DNA from: Verrucomicrobiia bacterium
GTDB lineage: Bacteria; Verrucomicrobiota; Verrucomicrobiia; Limisphaerales; CAIMTB01
NCBI GenBank assembly: GCA_019634625.1
Contig: JAHCBA010000004.1
Coordinates: 1 to 64,000 of the forward strand
Length of the DNA stretch: 64,000 bases
Direction of reading: 5' to 3'
A program made the position numbers and the translations under genes. Of the stretch, positions 19,223 through 55,080 are shown in pieces (the first letter of the stretch is position 1; every line of letters starts with the position of its first letter). The notes under the pieces were generated by a model, which saw only the letters and a list, made by a program, of their open reading frames with translations, searched no databases and was not told the origin of the DNA.

Positions 19223-20248
19223 TCACGAATGCCTCGCTTTCCCGGACGCCCAGCCGGATCTCCCCGCCCCCGCCCCCTCGGGTGCGTCCGCCAGATCCGG
19301 AACCCGCCGCCTCGCCGCCCACCGCGACCACCCCCTCCATCCCCATACCAATCCAAACAAACACCCGCTCGCCACCACCATCGCCCCAGCCGTCGAGCAA
19401 TCCAACCACACCGCCAGATGCATCCCCGCCACCGAACTCACCGCAGCCTGAACCCCAATCCATCCCAGGATTCGCGGCAACCGGTCCGATATCATCGACG
19501 CCGTGGCCCCGGGAAACACCAGCATCGCCACCACCAGGATCGCCCCCACCGACTCGAACGCGCTGACCACCACCACCGCCAGCCATCCCATCAACAGAAA
19601 ATGCACCGTCCCCGCCCGGATCCCCAGCGATGTCGCCAGTCCCGCATCAAATGAACTCACCAGCAGCTCCTTGTAGAACGTCACGATCAGCACCACGGTC
19701 GCCCCCCCCACCACCCCCATCCGCACCACGGGTACCGGCGCCAGCTCCCGCCCGGCCCATGTCAGAAAAGCCTGAAACGGTACAAACCCGATCTCACCGT
19801 ACAAGACACAGTCCGCGTCCAGATCCACCTGGTCCGCGAACACTGTGATCACCACCACCCCCAGCGCGAACAGTGCCGTGAACACCGTCCCCATCGCCGC
19901 ATCCTGCTTGATCCGCGAACCCCGGATCAGCCACTCGATCAAGACCGTCGTCAGCACCGCCGCCACCACCGCCCCAAAATAAGGAACCGCCGAGTTCCGA
20001 ACGTCCACCCCCTCCCCCATCACCATGCTCCCCAGCAGATAGGCCCCGGCCAGCCCCGGCAGAATACCATGCCCGATCGCGTCCCCCATCAACGCCATCC
20101 TCCGCAATATCAAATACTGCCCCACCAGCCCGCAGGTGCCCGTCACCAGGAATCCCATCAGCATCACCCATCCACTCAAGGCAAGATCCTCCGTCCACGG
20201 CTGCACAAACACCCGGTGCCATTCCAGCGGCGGAATCAGCTCACTCAT
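19223..20248 (-). CDS. Metal-ion ABC transporter permease (second permease)
   Basis: The product is 341 residues of the ABC-3 permease family (ZnuB/MntB/SitC/D-like), with eight or so hydrophobic segments. Typical motifs include LMGDAIGHGILPGLAGAYLLG, IKQDAAMGTVFTALFALGVVVIT and FKELLVSSFDAGLATSLGI-like FYKELLVSSFD. It would form the inner-membrane channel with the upstream permease for Mn, Zn or Fe import. ATG 20248 overlaps the end of the preceding gene by eight bases, showing translational coupling; the longer frame upstream of it is a shadow. It is the last gene of the four-gene operon. The specificity cannot be told from sequence. Confidence 0.9.
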   Translation of the reverse strand: MSELIPPLEWHRVFVQPWTEDLALSGWVMLMGFLVTGTCGLVGQYLILRRMALMGDAIGHGILPGLAGAYLLGSMVMGEGVDVRNSAVPYFGAVVAAVLTTVLIEWLIRGSRIKQDAAMGTVFTALFALGVVVITVFADQVDLDADCVLYGEIGFVPFQAFLTWAGRELAPVPVVRMGVVGGATVVLIVTFYKELLVSSFDAGLATSLGIRAGTVHFLLMGWLAVVVVSAFESVGAILVVAMLVFPGATASMISDRLPRILGWIGVQAAVSSVAGMHLAVWLDCSTAGAMVVASGCLFGLVWGWRGWSRWAARRRVPDLADAPEGAGAGRSGWASGKARHS

Positions 20249-21728
20249 GACCCTCCTTCGACCGTCGCACGCCACGCATCGGCAATCCGGGTTCCTCCGG
20301 ACTCGGAATCCGCCGCCCGTGCGGATCGGTGGCCGCATAGTCCAGCCGCCGCTCCAATTGCCGCACCACGTCCTCCCCCAGCACATGCTCGATCTCTTCC
20401 GCATCCTCGTGCACATGGTCCGGCGCAATCTGCGCCGCATGGGTCAGATACAGCTCCCAGAGCCTGTGATTCCGTACCACCTCCGCCGCACGCTGCATCC
20501 CCGCCTCCGTCAACCGGAACCGCTCCCCACCCCCTTCCACCGTCGCCAATCCGTGCCGTGCCAGGCTCCGCACCCGCGCCATCGCATCCTCCAGCGTTTC
20601 CCGCCGCTTTTCCGCCAGCTCCCGAAGCGTCACCGTCTCCCCGCGAAATCCCCGGCCCTCCAGCACATGATAGGCCGCCTTCAATGCGTTCTCCCGCGTG
20701 GCGCGCCGCGTCGCCGCCCGGTGCCGCAACGCCCGTGGCACCACCCCGTGCCGCGATGCAAACAGGAACGCCCCCCCAAACCCCGCGCTCGCCATCAACA
20801 CAATCGTCGGCCCCGTCGGTAAATCCCCCCCAATAAATGAAACAAAACACCCTCCCACCCCCGCCCCCATCCCCAGCAGGGCCGACCACCCCAGCATCCG
20901 GTGAAACCGGTCCGTCAACAGATACGCCGTCGCCGCCGGCGTCACCAGCATCGCCGCCACCAGCACCACGCCCACCGCCTGCAACGCGCTGACCACCGCA
21001 AACGACACCAGCAGCATCAGCCCGTGATGCGCCCATGGCGCCGGAAATCCCGCCGACCGCGCAAACGCCGCATCGAAGCTCGTCACCAGAAGCTCCTTGT
21101 AAAACAGCGCGATCAACCCTCCGGTCGCCACCGTCACCGCCCCCATCAACCACAAATCCTCCGTCCCGATCGCCGCCGCCTGCCCAAACAGAAACGTGTC
21201 GATCCCGCTCTTGTTCCCCGTCGGCAGCCTCTGGATCATCGTCATCAGACAAATCCCCACCGCGTAGAACCCCGCCAGCACCATCCCCAGCGCCGCATCC
21301 TCCTTCAATCGCGTCGTCCGCCGGATCCACCCGACCGTCATCGTCCCCAGCATGCCCGCCCCCACCGCCCCCACGAAAATCGCCCACGGATCCTTGGTCT
21401 GATTCCACAGGAACCCCGCCGCCACCCCCGGCAGAACCGCGTGCGACAACGTGTCCCCCACCAGCGCCAGCTTGCGCACCACCAGGAACGCCCCCAGCAA
21501 CCCGCACGAAATCCCCAGCAGCACCGACCCCGCCACCGCGTACCGCACCGCCGGATCCCGCAAACTCACAAATCGTACCGCCTGCTCCCACCGTCCCGCC
21601 AGCTCTCCTCCCTCCCCTCCCATTCCCCCAACCGTCGCCGCGTCGCACGCAACGCCGGCCGCCAGGGTCAATGCCAGGCCCATCCCGACCCACCCCCAAC
21701 CCCCACCCCATGCGACACGCGCCCTCAT
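20241..21728 (-). CDS. Metal-ion ABC transporter permease fused to a DtxR/MntR-type repressor domain
   Basis: The product is 495 residues. An N-terminal signal-like helix and the ABC-3 permease occupy about residues 50-330 ([57 protein letters not shown]). The C-terminal 150 residues, after a basic linker [19 protein letters not shown], read as a winged-helix iron/manganese-dependent repressor. They contain a [20 protein letters not shown] recognition segment, a wing with [13 protein letters not shown], and a metal/dimerisation segment with [10 protein letters not shown] and [13 protein letters not shown], including the His/Glu ligands of MntR. The gene is ATGA-coupled to the ATPase gene and overlaps the next permease. 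A separate MntR gene would normally do this job; none is seen in the window. Confidence 0.9.
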
Positions 21729-30320: not shown

Positions 30321-30390
30321 GGTCTCCGGTCTCCGGCCTCCGGTTTCAGGCCTCAGGCCTCAGGCCTCAGGCCTCCGGCCTCCGGCCTCC
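30321..30390. repeat. 7-bp tandem tract (GGCCTCA/GGTCTCC, 10 units)
   Basis: Ten units are in register: two GGTCTCC, GGCCTCC, GGTTTCA, three GGCCTCA and three GGCCTCC. The stop codon of the HEPN gene (30367) lies within it. Confidence 0.9.
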
Positions 30391-30879
30391 GTTTCCATCC
30401 GCCGGCCACGGTATCGCGTGCATCGCCGCGACCGCCTCAACAAACCGCAGCACCTCAGTCCGCAGCCGAGCCGCCACCCGATCCCCATCGCCACGCAGCA
30501 ACTTCAGTCGATCCCGCCGTAGAACCAGATCGTACGCATGCGTGAAGACATGCCGAAAGCCGCGCAAATCGGCGAGCGGCCCCTCGATATCCCGCGGCAA
30601 CAACGCCGGCCGAACCCCTGGAATCTCCAGCGTCACCCGCCGAATCAGTTCCGCATGCCAACGGCTCGGATCGTCAATCGCGTTCTCGAACCGCTTCGCC
30701 ACCCGCAACGCCATCTGTTCGATCGCATTGTACAGTCGGCAGAGCTGGTGACCGGCCGCCTCCTCGTGGGCAATTCCCGCTCCCTCCAGCCGCTCACCGA
30801 CCGCCGCCGCCGCCGACTCCACCACCTCCGCGTCCCGCAGAAGCTCCTGCTGCAACGTCATCAATTCGACCGCGTCCAT
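30367..30879 (-). CDS. HEPN-domain protein, partner of an MNT nucleotidyltransferase
   Basis: The product is 170 residues. Helical HEPN fold with QLCRLYNAIEQMALRVAKRFE and the putative active motif R109-H-V-F-T-H114-A-Y116 (R-x4-H). It overlaps the MNT gene upstream by 19 bases, the standard HEPN/MNT arrangement. HEPN toxins of this kind cleave RNA and are modified by the MNT partner. The C-terminus after IPWPADGNG is written by the heptad tract. Unlike the neighbour at 29497, the active motif is intact, so this module may function. Confidence 0.8.
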   Translation of the reverse strand: MDAVELMTLQQELLRDAEVVESAAAAVGERLEGAGIAHEEAAGHQLCRLYNAIEQMALRVAKRFENAIDDPSRWHAELIRRVTLEIPGVRPALLPRDIEGPLADLRGFRHVFTHAYDLVLRRDRLKLLRGDGDRVAARLRTEVLRFVEAVAAMHAIPWPADGNGGRRPEA

Positions 30880-31193
30880 CGCTGGCCCTCCCTTCGCACC
30901 GCCTCGGCAAACCGCGACTCCGACAACAATACCACGTCCACCTCCCGCCCCAGCACCTCGCTCAATTCCGCCTGCAGACGGTAGATCGTCACCCCCTCCG
31001 GCTCCCGTTCCAACGCAATATCCACATCCGAGCCCTCCCGAAACTGCCCCGGACGAACCACCGACCCGAACACCCAGACCTCGTCCCACCCCAACCACCG
31101 CGGCAACACCTCGCGCAACCGCTCCAACACCGCCAGACGCAACTCTTCGCGGCGCCTTCCCAGAGCCAGATCCCGCTGCTGAAGCAAAGTCAT
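30861..31193 (-). CDS. MNT-type nucleotidyltransferase (HEPN partner)
   Basis: The product is 110 residues. GS at 43-44 in VFGSVVRPGQ and catalytic D56-x-D58 in GSDVDIAL mark the MNT fold. The preceding helix QRDLALGRRREELRL is a typical lead-in. It is the upstream gene of an overlapping MNT/HEPN pair and likely the antitoxin. ATG 31193 is preferred; longer frames run into the heptad tract and repeat. Confidence 0.85.
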   Translation of the reverse strand: MTLLQQRDLALGRRREELRLAVLERLREVLPRWLGWDEVWVFGSVVRPGQFREGSDVDIALEREPEGVTIYRLQAELSEVLGREVDVVLLSESRFAEAVRREGQRWTRSN

Positions 31194-31203
31194 CAATGGG
31201 AAA

Positions 31204-31252
31204 CCTGGAGCCTGAGACCTGAAACCTGAAGCCTGAAACCTGAGACCCGAAT
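31204..31252. repeat. 7-bp tandem tract (CCTGAGA-type, 7 units)
   Basis: CCTGGAG, CCTGAGA, CCTGAAA, CCTGAAG, CCTGAAA, CCTGAGA and CCCGAAT lie immediately upstream of the MNT start. Confidence 0.85.
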
Positions 31253-31255
31253 TCA

Positions 31256-31450
31256 ATTTCCGGAGGGACGAGCTCCGCGAGTCCGCCCCAAATCCTCCAT
31301 CCGTCCTCCCAAAATCCTCCATCCCCCTCGTCCCCTCGTCCCCTCTCTGCCCGAGGCACGAGCTCCGCGAGTCCTAACCGCCACATGATGGGCGCTGCAA
31401 ACTATGCCGGTCTCCCTTCGCGTCTTGGCGTCTCTGCGTGAGATCCGCCC
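31256..31450. repeat. Partial dispersed-element copies and CTCTGCGTGAGA-type end
   Basis: CCGGAGGGACGAGCTCCGCGAGTCC at about 31260 and GAGGCACGAGCTCCGCGAGTCC at about 31352 are followed by CACATGATGGGCGC, CTCCCTTCGCG and a GCGTCTCTGCGTGAGA end. The order matches 29380-29515. The truncated four-helix-bundle gene starts right after. Confidence 0.65.
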
Positions 31451-33769: not shown

Positions 33770-33778
33770 TCTGAAATT

Positions 33779-33859
33779 GGGACTATGGGACTATGGGACC
33801 TTGGGACCTTGGGACTTTGGGACCTTGGGACTTTGGGACTTTGGGACCTTGGGACCCTT
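33779..33859. repeat. 8-bp tandem tract O1 (GGGACTTT-type, 10 units)
   Basis: Two GGGACTAT, then mixed GGGACCTT and GGGACTTT units, ending GGGACCCTT. It lies just upstream of the dehydratase start. Confidence 0.9.
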
Positions 33860-34176
33860 GGGAGTCGGTAGGTTAAAAGTATGGAGGCCCCGTGAGGAAC
33901 CGAAGACCCCATGGTGACCTGGACATACCGGCGCCCTTCCAATCCAATCAATAGGCCTACCGGTGGAGAACCTCGGAGCGGGCCCAATCATCCTTACTGC
34001 CTCAGAGCGGGCAATCTCGGCGCCATCACGCCACAACCGCCCAATTTCGGAGAATCCCGCAGGGTCTCCAGACATTAACCGCGAGTCGAATCCGCCACCG
34101 AGGATTCCCATCCCGGAACGCCCCACCCCACTCCGCAATCCCTACCACTTACCCCTCCCCACCCCAACCTTCCATC
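33860..34176. other. Intergenic stretch, no recognised gene
   Basis: The 317 bases between octamer tracts O1 and O2 hold small open frames in several phases without family resemblance. No hairpin or promoter is clear. Confidence 0.5.
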
Positions 34177-34218
34177 GTCCCAAAGTCCCAAAGTCCCAAA
34201 GTCCCAAAGTCCCAAAGT
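34177..34218. repeat. 8-bp tandem tract O2 (GTCCCAAA, 5 units)
   Basis: Five units of GTCCCAAA, the complement of TTTGGGAC, end against the stop codon of the antitoxin gene. Confidence 0.85.
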
Positions 34219-34472
34219 CAAGAAAGGTCCCCCCTGCTGGCCGCAATCCCGCCCGCCACCTCCTCCGCGTCGTAACACGTCTCGCCGAACGTCCGATTCA
34301 GCCGCGCCTCGATGTCCGGCATCCTGAACCGGCCTGGCCGATGCGGCTCGGCAGGAACCAGTCGCGCAAAGCGCTTGCCGCCCTTGGTGATCTCCACCGG
34401 CTCCCCCTCCTCGATCCACTTGGAAATCCGCGCGAACCCATTCCTCAAATCCCTGACCGTGGCCGTCTTCAT
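34218..34472 (-). CDS. Phd/YefM-type antitoxin, orphan
   Basis: The product is 84 residues. MKTATVRDLRNGFARISKW and a GEPVEITKGGKRFARLVP strand are the classic Phd/YefM DNA-binding half; the C-terminal part (IEARLNRTFGETCYDAEEV) would grip a toxin, usually a PIN-domain VapC. The toxin gene expected directly downstream is missing: the octamer tract O2 begins within a few bases of the stop. A perfect operator palindrome sits at the start codon. Confidence 0.8.
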   Translation of the reverse strand: MKTATVRDLRNGFARISKWIEEGEPVEITKGGKRFARLVPAEPHRPGRFRMPDIEARLNRTFGETCYDAEEVAGGIAASRGDLS

Positions 34473-34473
34473 C

Positions 34474-34493
34474 GTGATACGATCCTGTATCAC
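34474..34493 (-). promoter_or_regulatory. Antitoxin autoregulatory palindrome
   Basis: GTGATAC at 34474-34480 and GTATCAC at 34487-34493 form an exact seven-base inverted repeat around GATCCT. It lies one base from the antitoxin ATG, where Phd/YefM proteins bind to repress themselves. Confidence 0.75.
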
Positions 34494-34540
34494 ACCTCCC
34501 CCAACGTCCATCGGCAATCCGTTCCCGGGAACGCTTCCGC

Positions 34541-34643
34541 TGCATCCCCGCGTTGTGCGTACCGAGGAGGCAACGCCTCCGAGGGACGAGCTTCGCGACT
34601 CCTCGACCCAACACTCCACACCATTGCGGCCTCGTGGAACTCA
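34541..34643 (+). repeat. Divergent partial MITE-like element
   Basis: It keeps TGCATCCCCGCGTTGTGCG at one end, GAGGGACGAGCTTCGCGACTCC and GCGGCCTCGTGGAACTC, but lacks the other terminal repeat. Confidence 0.6.
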
Positions 34644-34764
34644 ACGTAACCGTTCGCGGGCTTTTCGGGCGGCGGAGCGGACGGAGGTGTTCGGCCCCGC
34701 GACGAAGCCGAAGTGTTCTCGAAATGTCCAGAACACTTCGCACTCCAGCGACATTCCGGGTGGA

Positions 34765-34900
34765 GCATCCCGCAGGGATGCCAGAGGGTAGCCGGAGGTC
34801 GAGCCTTGCGAGACCTCCGGAACCCGTTCGATCAACCCATCCCGACCCCGTCAGGGGTCGCAGACCCGCACGAACGTCCGATCGTTCCGGGGAAACGATC
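34765..34900. repeat. Cluster of four perfect short hairpins
   Basis: The stems are GCATCCC/GGGATGC (34765-34781), CCGGAGGTC/GACCTCCGG (34792-34820), GACCCC/GGGGTC (34844-34859) and GATCGTT/AACGATC (34880-34900). There is no coding capacity. It looks like a structured repeat or RNA. Confidence 0.65.
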
Positions 34901-35001
34901 TACGCCCCCTGCAGGGTCGTGACGTTGGTCCCGCCCTTCCATTCTGCCACACCACCCTATTCAGACACTTCCTCATTGACTTCCCCCCCCCTGCCACGCT
35001 A

Positions 35002-35119
35002 GTCCCAAAGTCCCAAAGTCCCAAAGTCCCAAAGTCCCAAAGTCCCAAAGTCCCAAAGTCCCAAAGTCCCAAAGTCCCAAAGTCCCAAAGTCCCAAAGTC
35101 CCAAAGTCCCAAAGTCCCT
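35002..35119. repeat. 8-bp tandem tract O3 (GTCCCAAA, about 15 units)
   Basis: Fourteen identical GTCCCAAA units and a final variant. It abuts the stop codon of the truncated glycosyltransferase at 35118. This is the most homogeneous octamer tract in the window. Confidence 0.95.
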
Positions 35120-35525
35120 AAGCTTCCCGCCCCACCTTCCCTCCAACCATCGCCTCATAGAGTTCCTCGTAGCGCCCGATGAAGTGCGGCATCGAATATT
35201 CCTCAACGACCTTGGCCCTCATCCTCCTCCCCAGAACCGCCCGCGCCTCGGGGCCCAATGCCTTCACCTCAATCAATTTGCTCGCCAGGGCTTTAGAATC
35301 ACCTGGAGGAACCAAGCAATCCGGAAAATCGGCCAGAATGAAATTGATCCCTGAAGTATTGGTTCCCACCACAACCCTCGCCGACGCCATCGCCTCGACC
35401 GGGGCCATCGGCATACCTTCCGTCCACATTGGTGGGCGTCGCAACCGTCCGATCCAACTGCGCCTCATGCGGCTTCCTTCCGTTGGTTGAAAGATGCCCA
35501 ATCGCAATGAGCCTTGGCACCACAA
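35118..35525 (-). pseudogene. GT4 glycosyltransferase, C-terminal fragment
   Basis: The 135-residue frame carries the C-terminal GT4 signature: TEGMPMAPVEAMASARVVVG, TNTSGINFIL, FPDCLVPPGDSKALASKLIEV and a final YSMPHFIGRYEELYE helix. Intact GT4 enzymes are about 370 residues; the whole N-terminal acceptor domain is missing, and the residues before TEGMPM do not match the family. The end runs into octamer tract O3. It is a remnant rather than an active enzyme. Confidence 0.75.
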
Positions 35526-35532
35526 CGGGGCC

Positions 35533-36279
35533 CTACTTCCGACAAATGGCGAACAAGTGAGCCGTTCGCTGCCCTGAGTCGTCCAGGCCTTGTGACTCCC
35601 ATCTGTTGATCAAATTGCTAATCATTGCCACCATCGTTCGAACGGGTCTTTTCACCGACATCCCTCGAATACCTCGAACTCTGTGCTTACCGGTCCGAAC
35701 GCCATACTTGACGCTGACCGTGGAAAAGTCCTTCGAGAGCAGCCTCTCGAGGTTGTCCCTGGTATAGTGACGAATGTGGTCCGGATTGTAGTGAGGCGGT
35801 TCGTTTTTGATGTAGTCGCCGTTGGGAGTTGTAAAATAGGCAAAGCCGCCGGACCTGCAGACACGGGCAATCTGGCCAACAAATGCAACGTCGTCCGGCA
35901 CATGCTCAATAACCTCTACGCTGATCACTCCGTCGAACGCGCCGTCCGGAAGCGTGGATTGTGTCATGTCCTCCAGTATAAGTCCCGTTATGTTGGATCG
36001 CCGCCGCCGTATCTCGGCCATCACCGACTCCGTCCATCCCAGGTGCAACCGCTCCTGAACCGCCGAGACACGGGGCAGTTCAACAATGGTGATATCAGCC
36101 CGCAATCCGACCGTGTACGGCGACTTACGGCCTCCGACATCGAGCAGCCTGGGCCGCCCTCCTATGCTGCCACTTAGAAACTCAAGGTCACGTTGCACCC
36201 GCCCCAGGTGCGCGGACATGCAAGGGCTCGCCCCAAGCATGAGGTTTTCGTACAATGTACGCATATCGAATGCTCCCAA
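35533..36279 (-). CDS. Class I SAM-dependent methyltransferase
   Basis: The product is 248 residues. Motif I is LLDVGGRKSP near residues 45-54, motif II is GLILEDMTQSTLPDGAFDGVISVEVIEHVPDD, then ARVCRSGGFAYFTTPNGD. It most likely methylates a sugar or lipid-linked glycan in this locus. A start at MRTLYENLMLG (36264) is equally plausible. Confidence 0.8.
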   Translation of the reverse strand: MGAFDMRTLYENLMLGASPCMSAHLGRVQRDLEFLSGSIGGRPRLLDVGGRKSPYTVGLRADITIVELPRVSAVQERLHLGWTESVMAEIRRRRSNITGLILEDMTQSTLPDGAFDGVISVEVIEHVPDDVAFVGQIARVCRSGGFAYFTTPNGDYIKNEPPHYNPDHIRHYTRDNLERLLSKDFSTVSVKYGVRTGKHRVRGIRGMSVKRPVRTMVAMISNLINRWESQGLDDSGQRTAHLFAICRK

Positions 36280-36331
36280 TCTCGCAGAGTCAGCGCTGAA
36301 ATCATCTCGACACCGACTTCAATTCCTCCAT

Positions 36332-37294
36332 TCACCCTGACTGTCTTAGTGGATGAAGTCCGGGTATGGGCGGCAGGATGTACGCACGAAGGATGCTATG
36401 CCCCACGGCCACCGCCTGCGCACCCTGCGATGCCTCCAAACAAAGCCAGTTGCCATGAGCACCAGGGCTGTTCCTCTCGCATCGCGGCCGAACACCCCAC
36501 CTTCCGAGCGTCCAGATCCGGTATCCCAGATCACGAACCATCCCGGCCAATTCCGATACCGTCCGCCCCGCCCTCTGTTGCAGCGTTTCAGACGCTTCCA
36601 GCACCAGGGGTGGCTTGTTCTTTTGTAGATATCTCTCTCCACCCTCCAGCACCGCGCATTCCCAGCCTTCCACATCAATGAATACTGCAGCAGCGGCCGG
36701 CAATTTCTCCTGGTCAAGGCTTCGACACTCCACCTCGATGGACTTGCCGAGGCGACTGCCGGGACTACTTGACTCCGGTAGGAGCAGATGGCCGAGGCCT
36801 GACTCTGCCTTATTTTCCGGAAGTTGAAAGTTCATCCGCCCCGACGCGGTCCCCAAGGCGCATCGGTGGAGTGTGACATTCTGAAGCGCGTTGTTTCGCA
36901 GGGTCATTTCCAATAGCTCGGCGTTTCCGGGATTCGGCTCATAAGCGACGACCCTTCCCGATGGCCCCACCACACCGCAAAGATCCAGGGTCTCCGTCCC
37001 GACATTCGCCCCGATCTCAATAACCCATTCTCCGGTCCGACACAGGACCCGTGCCACACAGGCATTGCGCCAATCATAGCACCCATGGAACAGCATCCTG
37101 TACTGGTGCCGATCATTCAGCGGCGCCAGCAATCGCGTACCATGCAGGCTCTCCGATTCCACCAGATCCGTATGCTTCGCCACCTCCCGGTAGGGCAACA
37201 GTAGCTCCCTCGCCCTTTGGGCCAGGATCAGCGGCAACCAGCGGGTGATGGCCCGGGCCCGGCGAATTCTGCGCTGAAGCGATTCCTTATCCAT
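36332..37294 (-). CDS. FkbM-family methyltransferase
   Basis: The product is 320 residues. WVIEIGANVGTETLDLCGVVG and VVAYEPNPGNAELLEMTLRNN are the FkbM SAM-binding core, with FIDVEGWECAVLEGG and PPLVLEASE later. The family O-methylates sugars or polyketides. ATG 37294 overlaps the stop of the sugar transferase gene by eight bases, so the genes are coupled. Confidence 0.88.
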   Translation of the reverse strand: MDKESLQRRIRRARAITRWLPLILAQRARELLLPYREVAKHTDLVESESLHGTRLLAPLNDRHQYRMLFHGCYDWRNACVARVLCRTGEWVIEIGANVGTETLDLCGVVGPSGRVVAYEPNPGNAELLEMTLRNNALQNVTLHRCALGTASGRMNFQLPENKAESGLGHLLLPESSSPGSRLGKSIEVECRSLDQEKLPAAAAVFIDVEGWECAVLEGGERYLQKNKPPLVLEASETLQQRAGRTVSELAGMVRDLGYRIWTLGRWGVRPRCERNSPGAHGNWLCLEASQGAQAVAVGHSILRAYILPPIPGLHPLRQSG

Positions 37295-38321
37295 TTTGCA
37301 TCCCGCTCGTTCGGCAGTCCCGCCGCTCATTAGCGCCCGCTCGCCATTCCCGAACCTGGATGCCCAACCTTTGCAGTCCCTGACACAAGCCTTCCTCCAT
37401 CGGTCCACTCGCCAGGACCACATCCACCCGCTCCCGCCAACCGGCGTTCAGCAGGCATTCAGGCATCCCAACCACCCGCACCCCACGAACCACCCTGTGC
37501 CATCGCCGTGGATCCTCATCGAACACCCCCACCACCTCAACCCCTGGGCATCCTTGCAGCGCTGCAACCATCCGCACGGCTGCATTCCCCCCGCCCACCA
37601 CCGCAACCCGCATGCCTGCCCGCACTCCTAAGGTCGCCCCATCCGCAACCCCAAGGGCCTCACTCTTCGCCTCCCCATCCCGATCCCCATCCCAAAGTCC
37701 CAAAGTCCCAAAGTCCCAAAGTCCCAAGGTCCTCAACACCACCCCGGCATCCGTCCACCACGTCGCCATCGCCTGATACTCCAGGTTCAACGCGATCTTC
37801 CGAGGCAGACACTCTCGCACATAAAAGCCCTCCACATCGTCCGCGCCGGCCAGCAACTCCTCCTCATGCCGGAACGCCAGCGATGCCACGTCTGTGATCC
37901 CCGGTCTCAGCCTCAACACCTCCCGCTGCCCTTCATCATAGAGTGCCACGTACCTGGGCACCTCCGGACGCGGCCCCACCAGGCTCATCTCTCCGACCAG
38001 CACGTTCCACAACTGGGGCAGCTCATCCAGCTTCCACCGCCTCAACCAACGCCCCACCCTCGTGATCCGCGGATCCCGTCCCTGGGTCACCGCAATCCCC
38101 ACCCGGTCCGCGTTGGGAACCATCGTTCGGAACTTCCAGATCCTGAACGGACGCCCGCCCCGACCCATCCGTTCCTGCCCGAAGAATACAGGGCCGCCAT
38201 CGCCCAGTTTGACCGAAAGCGCGATCAGCAGACCCAGTGGCGACAACACCAGCAAACCAAGGGCCGACGTAACGACATCGGTGAGCCGCTTGAGGTTGGG
38301 ACCATGGGACTTTGGGGCCAT
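37287..38321 (-). CDS. Initiating sugar transferase (Bac_transf) joined to a CoA-binding-like domain by an octamer-encoded linker
   Basis: The product is 344 residues. Residues 14-200 are the polyprenyl-phosphate sugar-1-phosphate transferase domain: one membrane helix (LGLLVLSPLGLLIALSV), FRIWKFRTM, KLDELPQLWNVL and GEMSLVGPRPE. Next comes LGLWDFGTLGLWDG, the translation of the octamer repeat at 37690-37729. After that a Rossmann-like domain starts at RVAVVGGGNAAVRMVAAL. The first nine residues (MAPKSHGPN) are themselves octamer-derived, so the true start may be lost or later. It loads the first sugar onto undecaprenyl phosphate. Confidence 0.85.
   Translation of the reverse strand: MAPKSHGPNLKRLTDVVTSALGLLVLSPLGLLIALSVKLGDGGPVFFGQERMGRGGRPFRIWKFRTMVPNADRVGIAVTQGRDPRITRVGRWLRRWKLDELPQLWNVLVGEMSLVGPRPEVPRYVALYDEGQREVLRLRPGITDVASLAFRHEEELLAGADDVEGFYVRECLPRKIALNLEYQAMATWWTDAGVVLRTLGLWDFGTLGLWDGDRDGEAKSEALGVADGATLGVRAGMRVAVVGGGNAAVRMVAALQGCPGVEVVGVFDEDPRRWHRVVRGVRVVGMPECLLNAGWRERVDVVLASGPMEEGLCQGLQRLGIQVREWRAGANERRDCRTSGMQNG
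37690..37729. repeat. 8-bp tandem tract O4 inside a coding sequence (5 units)
   Basis: Four TCCCAAAG and one TCCCAAGG lie inside the sugar transferase gene at the boundary between its two domains, without breaking the frame. Confidence 0.9.
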
Positions 38322-38452
38322 GGGACTATGGGACTATGGGACTATGGGACTATGGGACTTTGGGACTTTGGGACTTTGGGACTTTGAGACCATGGGACCA
38401 TGGGACCATGGGACTTTGGGACCATGGGACTTTGGGACCATGGGACCACGGG
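38298..38452. repeat. 8-bp tandem tract O5 (GGGACTTT/GGGACCAT/GGGACTAT, about 19 units)
   Basis: A mixed tract of GGGACTAT, GGGACTTT and GGGACCAT units with occasional variants. It contributes the first codons of the sugar transferase gene on the minus strand. Confidence 0.9.
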
Positions 38453-38489
38453 CGGATTGCGTTCAGGTGGTCCTGGCCTGATCGTCACT

Positions 38490-38830
38490 CCGTCAGGGCT
38501 TTCCACTGGCCTACGAGGTGATGGGCTGGCAACACGGCCGACAAGACGACCTTGGAGGGGTTCCTGGAGAATATCGAAGCCCAAGACGGGTAGGCCCAGC
38601 GGAACTGGGTGATGGACCGGGGTATTCCGACCGAGGAGGTGTTGGAGAAGATGCGCCGGCACGATCCGCCGGTTCAGTATCTGGTCGGCACGCCCAAAGG
38701 GCGGTTGAGTCGGTTGGAGAAGCGCCAGACCGATCTGCGGTGGCAGGAGGTGCGCGAAGAATAGGCTCTGCCAGGTCAGGCGCCAGGAAGGCCGGTATCT
38801 GTTACGGACGAACCAGAAAGACGGCGATCC
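38490..38830 (+). pseudogene. Degenerate IS1634/IS4-type transposase fragment
   Basis: In two frames the sequence reads GFPLAYEVM, then ADKTTLEGFLENIEAQDG, a TAG stop (38591-38593), then AQRNWVMDRGIPTEEVLEKM and PPVQYLVGTPKGRLSRLEK, typical of IS1634-like DDE transposases, with a later RQEGRYLLRTNQ piece. Frameshifts and stops rule out function. No inverted terminal repeats are recognisable. It sits between octamer tract O5 and the CTCTCACGGAGG inverted repeat. Confidence 0.7.
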
Positions 38831-38874
38831 GGGTCGGGAGACTGATTTGTTCCCTTGCGAAATCGAGTGGATGC

Positions 38875-38967
38875 CTCTCACGGAGGCACAAAGACACGGA
38901 GATGGAAGAGAACACCATGGGGACCATCCCAATCAGGATCCTCCGTGCCTCGGTGCCTCCGTGAGAG
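38875..38967. repeat. 27-bp inverted-repeat element (CTCTCACGGAGGCAC type)
   Basis: Arms at 38875-38901 and 38941-38967, three mismatches in 27, flank 39 bases. The arms start CTCTCACGGAGG and contain AAGACACGGAG. A second copy lies at 59771-59901 and a diverged one near 61287-61410. Confidence 0.8.
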
Positions 38968-38994
38968 AGAAATTCATCGAACATGCGGTCCAAT

Positions 38995-39058
38995 CGTCCC
39001 AAAGTCCAATGGTCCCAAAGTCCCAAAGTCCCAAAGTCCCAAAGTCCCATCGTCCCAT
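38995..39058. repeat. 8-bp tandem tract O6 (GTCCCAAA, about 8 units)
   Basis: Units of GTCCCAAA with GTCCAATG and GTCCCATC variants fill the gap between the inverted-repeat element and the stop of the aminotransferase gene. Confidence 0.85.
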
Positions 39059-39062
39059 TCCC

Positions 39063-40325
39063 CTACCCTCTCATGATCCCCTCCACCACCGCCTGGCAAA
39101 CTGCATCCACATCCCCTTCCTCCATATCGGGAAAAAGCGGCAACGTCACCAGTTCCGGATACAACCGCGCCGCCACCGGAAAGTCCTCGGGTTTGTACCC
39201 ATACATCTCCCGATAATACGGATGCATGTGCAGCGGCAACCAATGCACCGACGATCCGATTCCCCGCTCCGAAAGTCTGCGGATAAACTCCCCACGATCG
39301 ATCGACAACCGGTCCAACCGCAGCCGGATTGGGTACAGATGCCAGGAATGAATTCGTCCAGGCAACTGCTTTGGCAGAATAATCTCCTCGATGCCTCCCA
39401 GGCGCTGCTGATAGGCCGCCGCAAGGTCCGTCCGACGGCGGTGCAGTCGATCCGCCTTCCGCACCTGATGAATCCCGATCGCCGCCGCGATATCGGTCAT
39501 GTTGTACTTAAACCCCGGCGCCAGAATCTCGTAGTACCACGATCCCTCTCCCGTGTACCGCTTCCATGCATCCTTCGAAATCCCGTGCAACGACATGATC
39601 CGCATCCGCTCCGCGTACGCATCATTCCCGGTACAGGCCATCCCCCCCTCCCCGGTCGTAATCGTCTTATTCGCATAGAACGAATAGCAACTGATATCCG
39701 CCCCCCACCCCACCGACCGCCAAACGCCCTCCTCCTGCACCTCTCCCTTTTCAGGTTTCAGGTCTCCGGCTCCAGGTTTCAGGTTTCTGCTTTCTGCTTT
39801 CTGCTTTCTGCTTTCCCAAAAATGCGCCGGACAACAATGCGCCGCATCCTCGACAATCCTCAACCCATGCCGCCTCGCCAGATCCTGCACCCCCGCCACA
39901 TCCCCGATCTGCCCCCCGTAGTGCACGGGAATGATGGCCAACACCCGACGCCCCTTACCCTGTTCGGCCACAATCCGTCGCTCCGCGTCCGCCACGTCCA
40001 GATTGAAATCCTCCTCGCGGCAATCGACCAGGATCGGGTGCGCCTGGAAATACCGGACCACCTCGGCCGTCGCCGCAAAGGTCATCGTCGGCACCACCAC
40101 GCCGTCCCCGGCCTGCACTCCGATGGCCTCAAGGGCCAGGTGCAAGGCCGCCGTACAGGAATTCACCGCGACCGCGTGACGCTGGCCCAGGTACGCCGCG
40201 AACTCCCCTTCGAACTGTTTGGTCCGCGGACCGGTCGTCAACCACCCGCCCCGAAGCGTCGCCACCACCTCCGCGATTTCCTCCTCGCCCACACACGGCC
40301 GGTAAAAGGGTACCTTGCGCATCAT
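39063..40325 (-). CDS. DegT/DnrJ/EryC1-type PLP aminotransferase with heptad-encoded insertion
   Basis: The product is 420 residues. Sugar aminotransferase motifs are present: GGWLTTGPRTKQFE, NSCTAALHLAL, VHYGGQIGDV, EDAAH and the PLP lysine in YANKTITTGEGGM near 220. The C-terminus has MTDIAAAIGIHQ and SSVHWLPLHMHP. It transfers an amino group to a 4-keto sugar, the likely product of the WbpM-type dehydratase. Between HFW and the GADISCYSFY strand, about 21 residues (ESRKQKAESRNLKP onward) come from nine heptads at 39754-39816. A one-turn insertion at this loop probably does not destroy folding. MMRKVPFYRP marks the start. Confidence 0.9.
   Translation of the reverse strand: MMRKVPFYRPCVGEEEIAEVVATLRGGWLTTGPRTKQFEGEFAAYLGQRHAVAVNSCTAALHLALEAIGVQAGDGVVVPTMTFAATAEVVRYFQAHPILVDCREEDFNLDVADAERRIVAEQGKGRRVLAIIPVHYGGQIGDVAGVQDLARRHGLRIVEDAAHCCPAHFWESRKQKAESRNLKPGAGDLKPEKGEVQEEGVWRSVGWGADISCYSFYANKTITTGEGGMACTGNDAYAERMRIMSLHGISKDAWKRYTGEGSWYYEILAPGFKYNMTDIAAAIGIHQVRKADRLHRRRTDLAAAYQQRLGGIEEIILPKQLPGRIHSWHLYPIRLRLDRLSIDRGEFIRRLSERGIGSSVHWLPLHMHPYYREMYGYKPEDFPVAARLYPELVTLPLFPDMEEGDVDAVCQAVVEGIMRG
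39754..39816. repeat. 7-bp tandem tract inside the aminotransferase gene (9 units, 63 bp)
   Basis: GGTTTCA, GGTCTCC, GGCTCCA, GGTTTCA, GGTTTCT, three GCTTTCT and GCTTTCC. Nine units make 63 bases, exactly 21 codons, so the frame is kept. Confidence 0.9.
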
Positions 40326-40361
40326 GTCAGATTCCCACGGATTCAATGGAACAACACCCGC

Positions 40362-53193: not shown

Positions 53194-53202
53194 TCCAGTG
53201 AA

Positions 53203-53237
53203 GAAAGCAGAAAGCAGAAAGTAGAAAGCAGAAATTG
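53203..53237. repeat. 7-bp tandem tract (GCAGAAA, 5 units)
   Basis: GCAGAAA-type units lie directly before the wzt start codon on the minus strand. Equivalent short tracts are at 53643-53676 and 54094-54121, each bordering a four-helix-bundle gene. Confidence 0.8.
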
Positions 53238-53277
53238 GCCAATCATGAAGGTATTGATGGAGTGGCTTTAGGGCACT

Positions 53278-53643
53278 TCATCGACTTGCCTTGGTTCTAT
53301 TGATCATTGTGGTGAGGATTGCAATCAGCTCTGAGGCTTCTCTCTCCAGCGGCTGCGTGCTGTCAGGATCTACTCCGCACTCTTCACGAAGGAGTTCCAA
53401 CCAGAGCTGGCTTTCGTCGGCTTCCTGGAGTGCGCCTCCGAGTTTCGAAGCGAATTCCTCATTGGACCGTGCGCGGGAGGCCTCGCGCACCTGTGCAGCC
53501 ACCGATGTTCCCGAGCGCAGCAGTTGCTTCCCGATCACTCGCAGTTCCTCCCTTCCCTTGGGAAGACCCACAAATAGCCGGATCGCCCCTGCCGCAAATC
53601 GCTTCGTACGTCCCCGAAACTCCTCCGGCAACCGGCCACTCAC
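53278..53643 (-). CDS. Four-helix-bundle protein, copy A
   Basis: The product is 121 residues, the full length for the TIGR02436/S23-type four-helix-bundle family. RTKRFAAGAIRLFVGLPKG, VIGKQLLRSGTSVAAQVREASRARS and a QEADESQLWLELL segment are conserved. It lies between the Wzt and Wzm genes and is about 95% identical to copy B. No function is established for free-standing members; some relatives (Avd) are partners of diversity-generating reverse transcriptases, but no reverse transcriptase is present here. Confidence 0.88.
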   Translation of the reverse strand: MSGRLPEEFRGRTKRFAAGAIRLFVGLPKGREELRVIGKQLLRSGTSVAAQVREASRARSNEEFASKLGGALQEADESQLWLELLREECGVDPDSTQPLEREASELIAILTTMINRTKASR

Positions 53644-53676
53644 AAAAGCAGAAAGCAGAAACTAGAAAGCAGAAAT
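53643..53676. repeat. 7-bp tandem tract (GCAGAAA/CTAGAAA, 4-5 units)
   Basis: GCAGAAA-type units mark the boundary between four-helix-bundle copies A and B. Confidence 0.75.
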
Positions 53677-53718
53677 TGGATGATCATGATGGCTTTGATG
53701 GAGTGGCTTTGGGGCACT

Positions 53719-54084
53719 TCATCGACCTGCCTTGGTTCTATTGATCATTGTGGTGAGGATTGCAATCAGCTCTGAGGCTTCCTTCTCCAGCGGCTCAGTG
53801 CTGTCAGGATCCACTCCGCACTCTTCACGGAGGAGTTCCAACCAGAGCTGGCTTTCGTCAGCTTCCTGGAGTGCGCCTCCGAGTTTTGACGCGAACTCCT
53901 CATGAGACCGGGCACGGGATGCTTCCCTGACGTGCGCGGCGACCGACGTCGCAGAACGCAACAACTGCCTTCCGATCACACGCAGTTCTTCCCTTCCTTT
54001 GGGCATGCCGACGAACAGACGGATCGCCCCTGCCGCAAATCGCTTCGTACGTCCCCGAAACTCCTCCGGCAACCGTCCACTCAT
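53719..54084 (-). CDS. Four-helix-bundle protein, copy B
   Basis: The product is 121 residues, with only a handful of differences from copy A (for example SATSVAAHVREA for SGTSVAAQVREA). The genes repeat at a 441-base interval including the flanking sequence ending in GCAGAAA heptads. ATG 54084 begins MSGRLPEEF; the longer frame upstream is heptad sequence. Confidence 0.88.
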   Translation of the reverse strand: MSGRLPEEFRGRTKRFAAGAIRLFVGMPKGREELRVIGRQLLRSATSVAAHVREASRARSHEEFASKLGGALQEADESQLWLELLREECGVDPDSTEPLEKEASELIAILTTMINRTKAGR

Positions 54085-54093
54085 AACTTTTTC

Positions 54094-54121
54094 TGCTTTC
54101 TGCTTTCTACTTTCTGCTTTT
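54094..54121. repeat. 7-bp tandem tract (TTTCTGC/TTTCTAC, 4 units)
   Basis: TTTCTGC-type units (the complement of GCAGAAA) separate copy B from the stop of the wzm gene. Confidence 0.75.
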
Positions 54122-54968: not shown

Positions 54969-55080
54969 AAACCTGAAAGGGCAAAGCAGAAATTGAAAAG
55001 CAGAAATTGAAAAGCAGAAAGCAGAAAGCAGAAAGCAGAAATTGGAAACCTGAGGCCTGAAACCTGAGACCTGATAGCTA
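54969..55080. repeat. 7-bp tandem tracts (GCAGAAA then CCTGAAA/CCTGAGA)
   Basis: GCAGAAA units and AATTGAAA variants, then CCTGAGG, CCTGAAA, CCTGAGA and CCTGATA. The two heptad types adjoin here in the same stretch. Confidence 0.8.

Follow-up and report, generated by a model that had tools for sequence, protein, structure and literature searches.

Heptad-repeat DNA most probably entered, or persisted and turned over in, one indel-tolerant surface loop of a DegT-family sugar aminotransferase, where selection keeps the reading frame, and we give this reading a probability of about 0.7. The gene lies in a 64-kb window, the whole stretch of DNA that was analysed, and the elements of the loop are as follows, in window coordinates:

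39063–40325, minus strand: DegT/DnrJ/EryC1/StrS sugar aminotransferase gene, 420 residues from ATG at 40325 (Pfam PF01041, E 5.7e-111)
39741–39815, minus strand: 75-bp (25-residue) insertion relative to empty orthologues, ends approximate (loop comparison)
39784–39815, minus strand: 4.6 perfect AAAGCAG heptads, TTTCTGC on the forward strand (TRF)
39749–39783, minus strand: five imperfect CCTGARR-type heptads (TRF and reading of the coding strand)

That heptads lie in frame in a loop of this DegT enzyme, which is canonical in other respects, had been recognised from the sequence alone, and both TRF and the Pfam match confirm it, the latter with 371.7 bits against a curated cut-off of 19.8, which places the protein in the DegT/DnrJ/EryC1/StrS family. 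The open frame reaches further upstream, to TTG at 40346. On the coding strand, four perfect AAAGCAG units are followed by five imperfect CCTGARR-type units, the whole array spanning 39749–39815, and TRF reports 39749–39787 as 5.6 copies of TTTCAGG at 75% match. The nine heptads of the sequence-only reading are thus present, as nine to ten units in frame in this DegT/ArnB-like gene, but only four of them are perfect. Period-7 identity over the insert amounts to 0.71, a value reached by 0 of 2000 first-order Markov shuffles, and first-order Markov simulations, run on the window and on 400 kb of the same genome, produced no perfect period-7 run with at least 14 matches. The gain had been put at 21 residues or 63 bp; comparison with empty orthologues instead gives 25 residues or 75 bp, the loop segment comprising 70 residues versus 45 in the protein alignment and 126 bp versus 51 bp at the DNA level. 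A length of 75 bp cannot be divided by seven, so the heptad count by itself does not fix the frame.

The insert is located upstream of the catalytic lysine, K219, which is invariant among 25 homologues. The best solved relatives are ArnB enzymes, both by sequence and by fold, ArnB structures being the top PDB matches to the model (TM-score 0.79 by query, 0.91 by target). Query and ArnB/PseC-type DegT aminotransferases share the fold and the catalytic-lysine motif, the difference being 25 extra residues in a loop whose matching stretch in ArnB counts about 12. Because the protein falls under the curated cut-off of the PseC profile TIGR03588 (332.9 bits versus 423.5), its sugar substrate is left unassigned. 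In the AlphaFold2 model (25 sequences, mean pLDDT 85.4) the insert sits between strands 167–171 and 199–203, with pLDDT of about 59–66 compared to about 90 in the flanks, which is consistent with a flexible hairpin tip. The loop would then lie at the tip of a beta-hairpin on the protein surface, after the PLP-site strand and before the catalytic lysine, a place predicted to tolerate changes in length.

The uniqueness of the insertion, which the earlier reading had wished to see confirmed by homologue alignment, holds at broad range only. Among 99 homologues from many phyla, 96 lack a large insertion at this loop, and the three that have it are the query and two metagenome-assembled records from Verrucomicrobia, AV5 and AV7. 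When 320 genomes of the order were searched, however, 22 genomes, query included, had close orthologues, and repeat DNA with differing units occupies the same loop in nine of these orthologues, again counting the query; an insertion unique to the query genome is ruled out by the eight others (G101, G139, G586, G078, G583, G059, G093 and G579). At least 14 copies are empty, namely those of G566, G066, G009, G048, G297, G499, G124, G022, G058, G012, G588 and G172 (the last from outside the order), the second enzyme copies of G101 and G139 and, by reading of the sequence, that of G539. The G101 protein is 100% identical to that of AV7, and the G139 loop is identical to the AV5 loop. The insert of G579 is cut by a contig end, up to which the loop is open and in frame, and the remaining seven are complete. 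Besides heptads, the G579 loop (L222, reverse strand upstream of 2142) contains REP-like palindromes (CCCTCTCCCCGGCCGAGGCGGAGAGGG and another). Across lineages the inserts range from 25 to 68 residues, whereas over some 370 residues outside the loop the 22 orthologues show one 1-residue deletion, so that the enzyme is almost free of indels except at this site.

An insertion shared with other species but made of DNA other than heptads would have marked ancestral protein sequence, according to the sequence-only reading. Other species are indeed inserted at the same point, but there too with heptad DNA, in spellings such as GTCAGTG, ATCAACC, GACCACA and AGAGGAC. Period-7 identity exceeds that of shuffles in all eight complete inserts, query included (0 of 2000 in seven, 2 of 2000 in G093), which rules out ordinary ancestral sequence for these eight; the 54 extra bases of the G085 loop, which show neither heptads nor a period-7 signal, may be of that kind. 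A different concern is that repeats were misjoined in draft assemblies, given that the named relatives are metagenome-assembled and that simple repeats are error-prone. We regard this as extremely improbable, since the window lies within a 264.7-kb contig, and misassembly would not be expected to place inserts at one codon boundary in separate genomes, all in frame and without stops.

The reading frame is kept throughout. All seven complete heptad inserts of the other genomes, each from a different species with one genome per species, are a multiple of three bases long and in frame; the N-terminal and the C-terminal part were each placed separately, a procedure that would have revealed an out-of-frame allele. 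With random phase about one third would be expected in frame, giving (1/3)^7 or about 5e-4 for all seven, a figure that is somewhat weaker if AV5 and AV7 count as one lineage. Across the nine inserts the reading frame contains no stop, while the two alternative frames contain 9 and 8, or 17 in total. According to translations of pure arrays, AAAGCAG units are stop-free in all coding-strand frames, while an array of pure CCTGAAA meets TGA within a few units whatever the frame. In the query the third imperfect unit reads GAGCCGG, where the consensus at that phase would give an in-frame TGA stop. Between AV5 and AV7 the differences amount to exactly 21 and 63 bp, steps of the sizes permitted when heptads must preserve the frame.

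These observations bear on the proposal, made from the sequence alone, that length changes of one or two units act as an on/off switch for the enzyme. Such a switch would work through slipped-strand changes, like that of neuO. In neuO of E. coli K1 and prophage CUS-3, AAGACTC heptads number from 3 to 53, most commonly 20, and the gene is OFF in 65.6% of genomes (PMC13001214). Both systems place coding heptads in a glycan-modifying enzyme, with the frame set by unit number modulo three (PMC13001214), and the query gene sits in a glycan cluster, the usual target of such switches. Its unit is not a multiple of three, and a gain or loss of one or two units indeed leaves a product of 172–193 residues that ends before the lysine motif, while three units in either direction cause no truncation. 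However, the neuO tract is long, perfect and near the 5' end, with most genomes OFF, whereas the query tract is short, imperfect and internal, its perfect part comprising only 4.6 units, and its complete relatives are in frame, with OFF alleles in 0 of 7 between species. Half of the array is moreover degenerate, which slows slippage, and one degenerate unit is required to escape the stop. Of the neuO hallmarks, we thus found truncation by frame-shift, but neither OFF alleles among genomes nor a long perfect tract. Phase switching at the DegT array is accordingly not supported, within a sampling of one genome per species that cannot reveal rare variants, and we consider the switch quite unlikely.

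A tree of 18 proteins did not separate one from two origins of the insert (AU p 0.27). The best larger tree, in which G579 was counted as inserted and the non-heptad G085 was not, requires four changes of state; grouping every inserted gene in a single clade is rejected (AU p 0.019), and is retained at p 0.31 if G566 is treated as a secondary loss. Several gains, or one old gain with turnover, would both be compatible with the tree. RRAGCAG-type units are common to the query genome, G139 and G093, and judged from the unit spellings we lean towards some common descent among these three, while the GACCACA and ATCAACC units look lineage-specific. The loop could be a coding microsatellite of great age: one codon position would have kept an in-frame heptad array through the history of the order, and its unit sequence would have been repeatedly overwritten from neighbouring arrays, in both orientations, by a copying process, with selection vetoing only frame breaks and stops; we hold this variant to be possible, though doubtful. 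Recurrence or persistence of the insert at one site in several lineages, together with the open frame, could also point to a functional variable loop, in which the inserted peptide tunes stability, partner binding or substrate access and is kept by selection. Against this, units, peptides and lengths are wholly different between lineages, and the insert is absent from the second copies in G101 and G139 as well as from G566, which is nested among inserted genes, rendering such a function unlikely in our view.

Both unit families of the query form further arrays in the same genome, and repeats of period seven and eight are concentrated in the window. The window contains 24 perfect period-7 and period-8 runs compared to 7 in 400 kb from 20 other contigs, a density about 21 times higher, or about 12 times when a second sample with a dense patch on contig 31 is included (19 in 600 kb). 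These statistics derive from 864 kb of sequence and from pattern searches over the whole 6.74-Mb assembly. Genome-wide, CCTGARR arrays give 422 overlapping pattern matches versus 8 for the reversed control, while AAAGCAG arrays occur only in this cluster, at one place on contig C23 and as a single two-unit near match on C2; in the class, three perfect copies of AAAGCAG are rare (11 of 384 genomes). AAAGCAG-type arrays also flank the DegT gene of AV5. The dense patch (L174, C31:1–20000) contains eight heptad runs and one octad run, one of its heptad arrays reaching 20.6 copies. The DegT gene belongs to a glycan cluster of lower GC than the rest of the contig, together with a Polysacc_synt_2 dehydratase, a bacterial sugar transferase, glycosyltransferases, methyltransferases, a Wzt-like ABC transporter and asparagine-synthase-type enzymes. 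The other arrays of this region, located by TRF, are:

53202–53234, plus strand: intergenic AAAGCAG array in the same cluster, at the start of a 441-bp tandem duplication
53645–53675, plus strand: AAAGCAG array at the second copy of the duplication
54090–54120, minus strand: AAAGCAG array in opposite orientation
54983–55074, plus strand: composite array, AAAGCAG followed by CCTGARR units, in the same order as in DegT
37690–37732, minus strand: AAAGTCCC octads in frame in the neighbouring sugar-transferase gene (37287–38321)
33777–39057, both orientations: all AAAGTCCC octad arrays of the assembly, at 33.8, 34.2, 35.0, 37.7, 38.3–38.45 and 39.0 kb

The two copies of the 441-bp duplication (53204–54083) begin within heptads of the AAAGCAG family, as though recombination between arrays had produced them. 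A whole-genome search found the AAAGTCCC octads confined to those 5.3 kb of the 6.74-Mb assembly, where some are intergenic, some stand ahead of gene starts and some lie inside one gene, in frame. From such distributions, repeat arrays seem to be copied locally. The sugar transferase with octads is missing a hydrophobic-looking segment of some 130 residues that its AV5 and AV7 homologues possess, and the octads stand at the junction. Elsewhere in the window, heptads (31200–31251) lie within the N-terminal part of an open frame (30367–31386) with a HepT-like C-terminal domain, and the open frame 20241–21728 joins an ABC-3 metal-transport permease to an iron-dependent-repressor C-terminal domain.

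Repeat DNA in frame in working genes, apparently at tolerated places, is also a feature of the Rickettsia palindromic elements, palindromes of about 150 bp that encode a conserved peptide and are spread over many unrelated genes (PMC10969869). The present system differs in consisting of heptads, in its non-conserved peptide and in that one loop of one enzyme was hit repeatedly or long held. Long inverted arms are missing from the query insert, and the nine inserts share no common peptide; besides this loop, the octads of the sugar transferase are the case seen in another gene. Inverted arms are present in only some inserts: that of G583 (L223) is a near-perfect hairpin with arms of about 32 bp made of the heptads GACCACA/TGTGGTC. 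A parallel to the genomic distribution is provided by the dispersed heptanucleotide repeats of Nostoc and Xanthomonas (PMC4692102) and the TAACTGA repeats of Beggiatoaceae (PMC4679880), where heptad arrays are likewise scattered over the genome with few favoured units per lineage; the arrays reported there are, in contrast, mainly intergenic. A literature search on heptanucleotide repeats in Verrucomicrobia and on short tandemly repeated repetitive sequences found no paper, and no published description of recurrent coding heptad insertion at one site was found in a search that fell short of the whole literature. Dispersed heptads are hence already known, and as far as the literature was searched, the recurrent coding insertion in a single loop is the new element.

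We propose a model in which the query heptads would belong to the dispersed heptad-repeat DNA of the genome. Across one order of Verrucomicrobiota, such DNA would have entered the loop repeatedly, or an old array would have stayed there with its units turning over. Units would be gained and lost, the survivors being changes that keep the frame and add no stop. The enzyme would stay on and carry the repeat as a peptide that we infer to be disordered in the real protein and probably neutral. The loop could nevertheless affect the enzyme, and long inserts (68 residues) may carry a cost. The analysis revealed no mechanism of spread, and for the presumed route into the loop a dispersed source is not apparent in G583, whose GACCACA unit is seen nowhere else in its 87% complete genome, yet has 32 matches in G588, a genome of the same family with an empty loop.

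When the length of a repeat unit cannot be divided by three, one expects the repeat either to be kept out of genes or to serve as a switch. Here, in several lineages, heptads contribute 25 to 68 residues at one point of a conserved enzyme that is nearly indel-free elsewhere, and coding heptads by themselves are consequently no proof of phase variation. As a natural series, the loops of these orthologues allow one to ask how repeat DNA turns into protein, by what route heptads spread in genomes and whether such loops benefit glycan enzymes.
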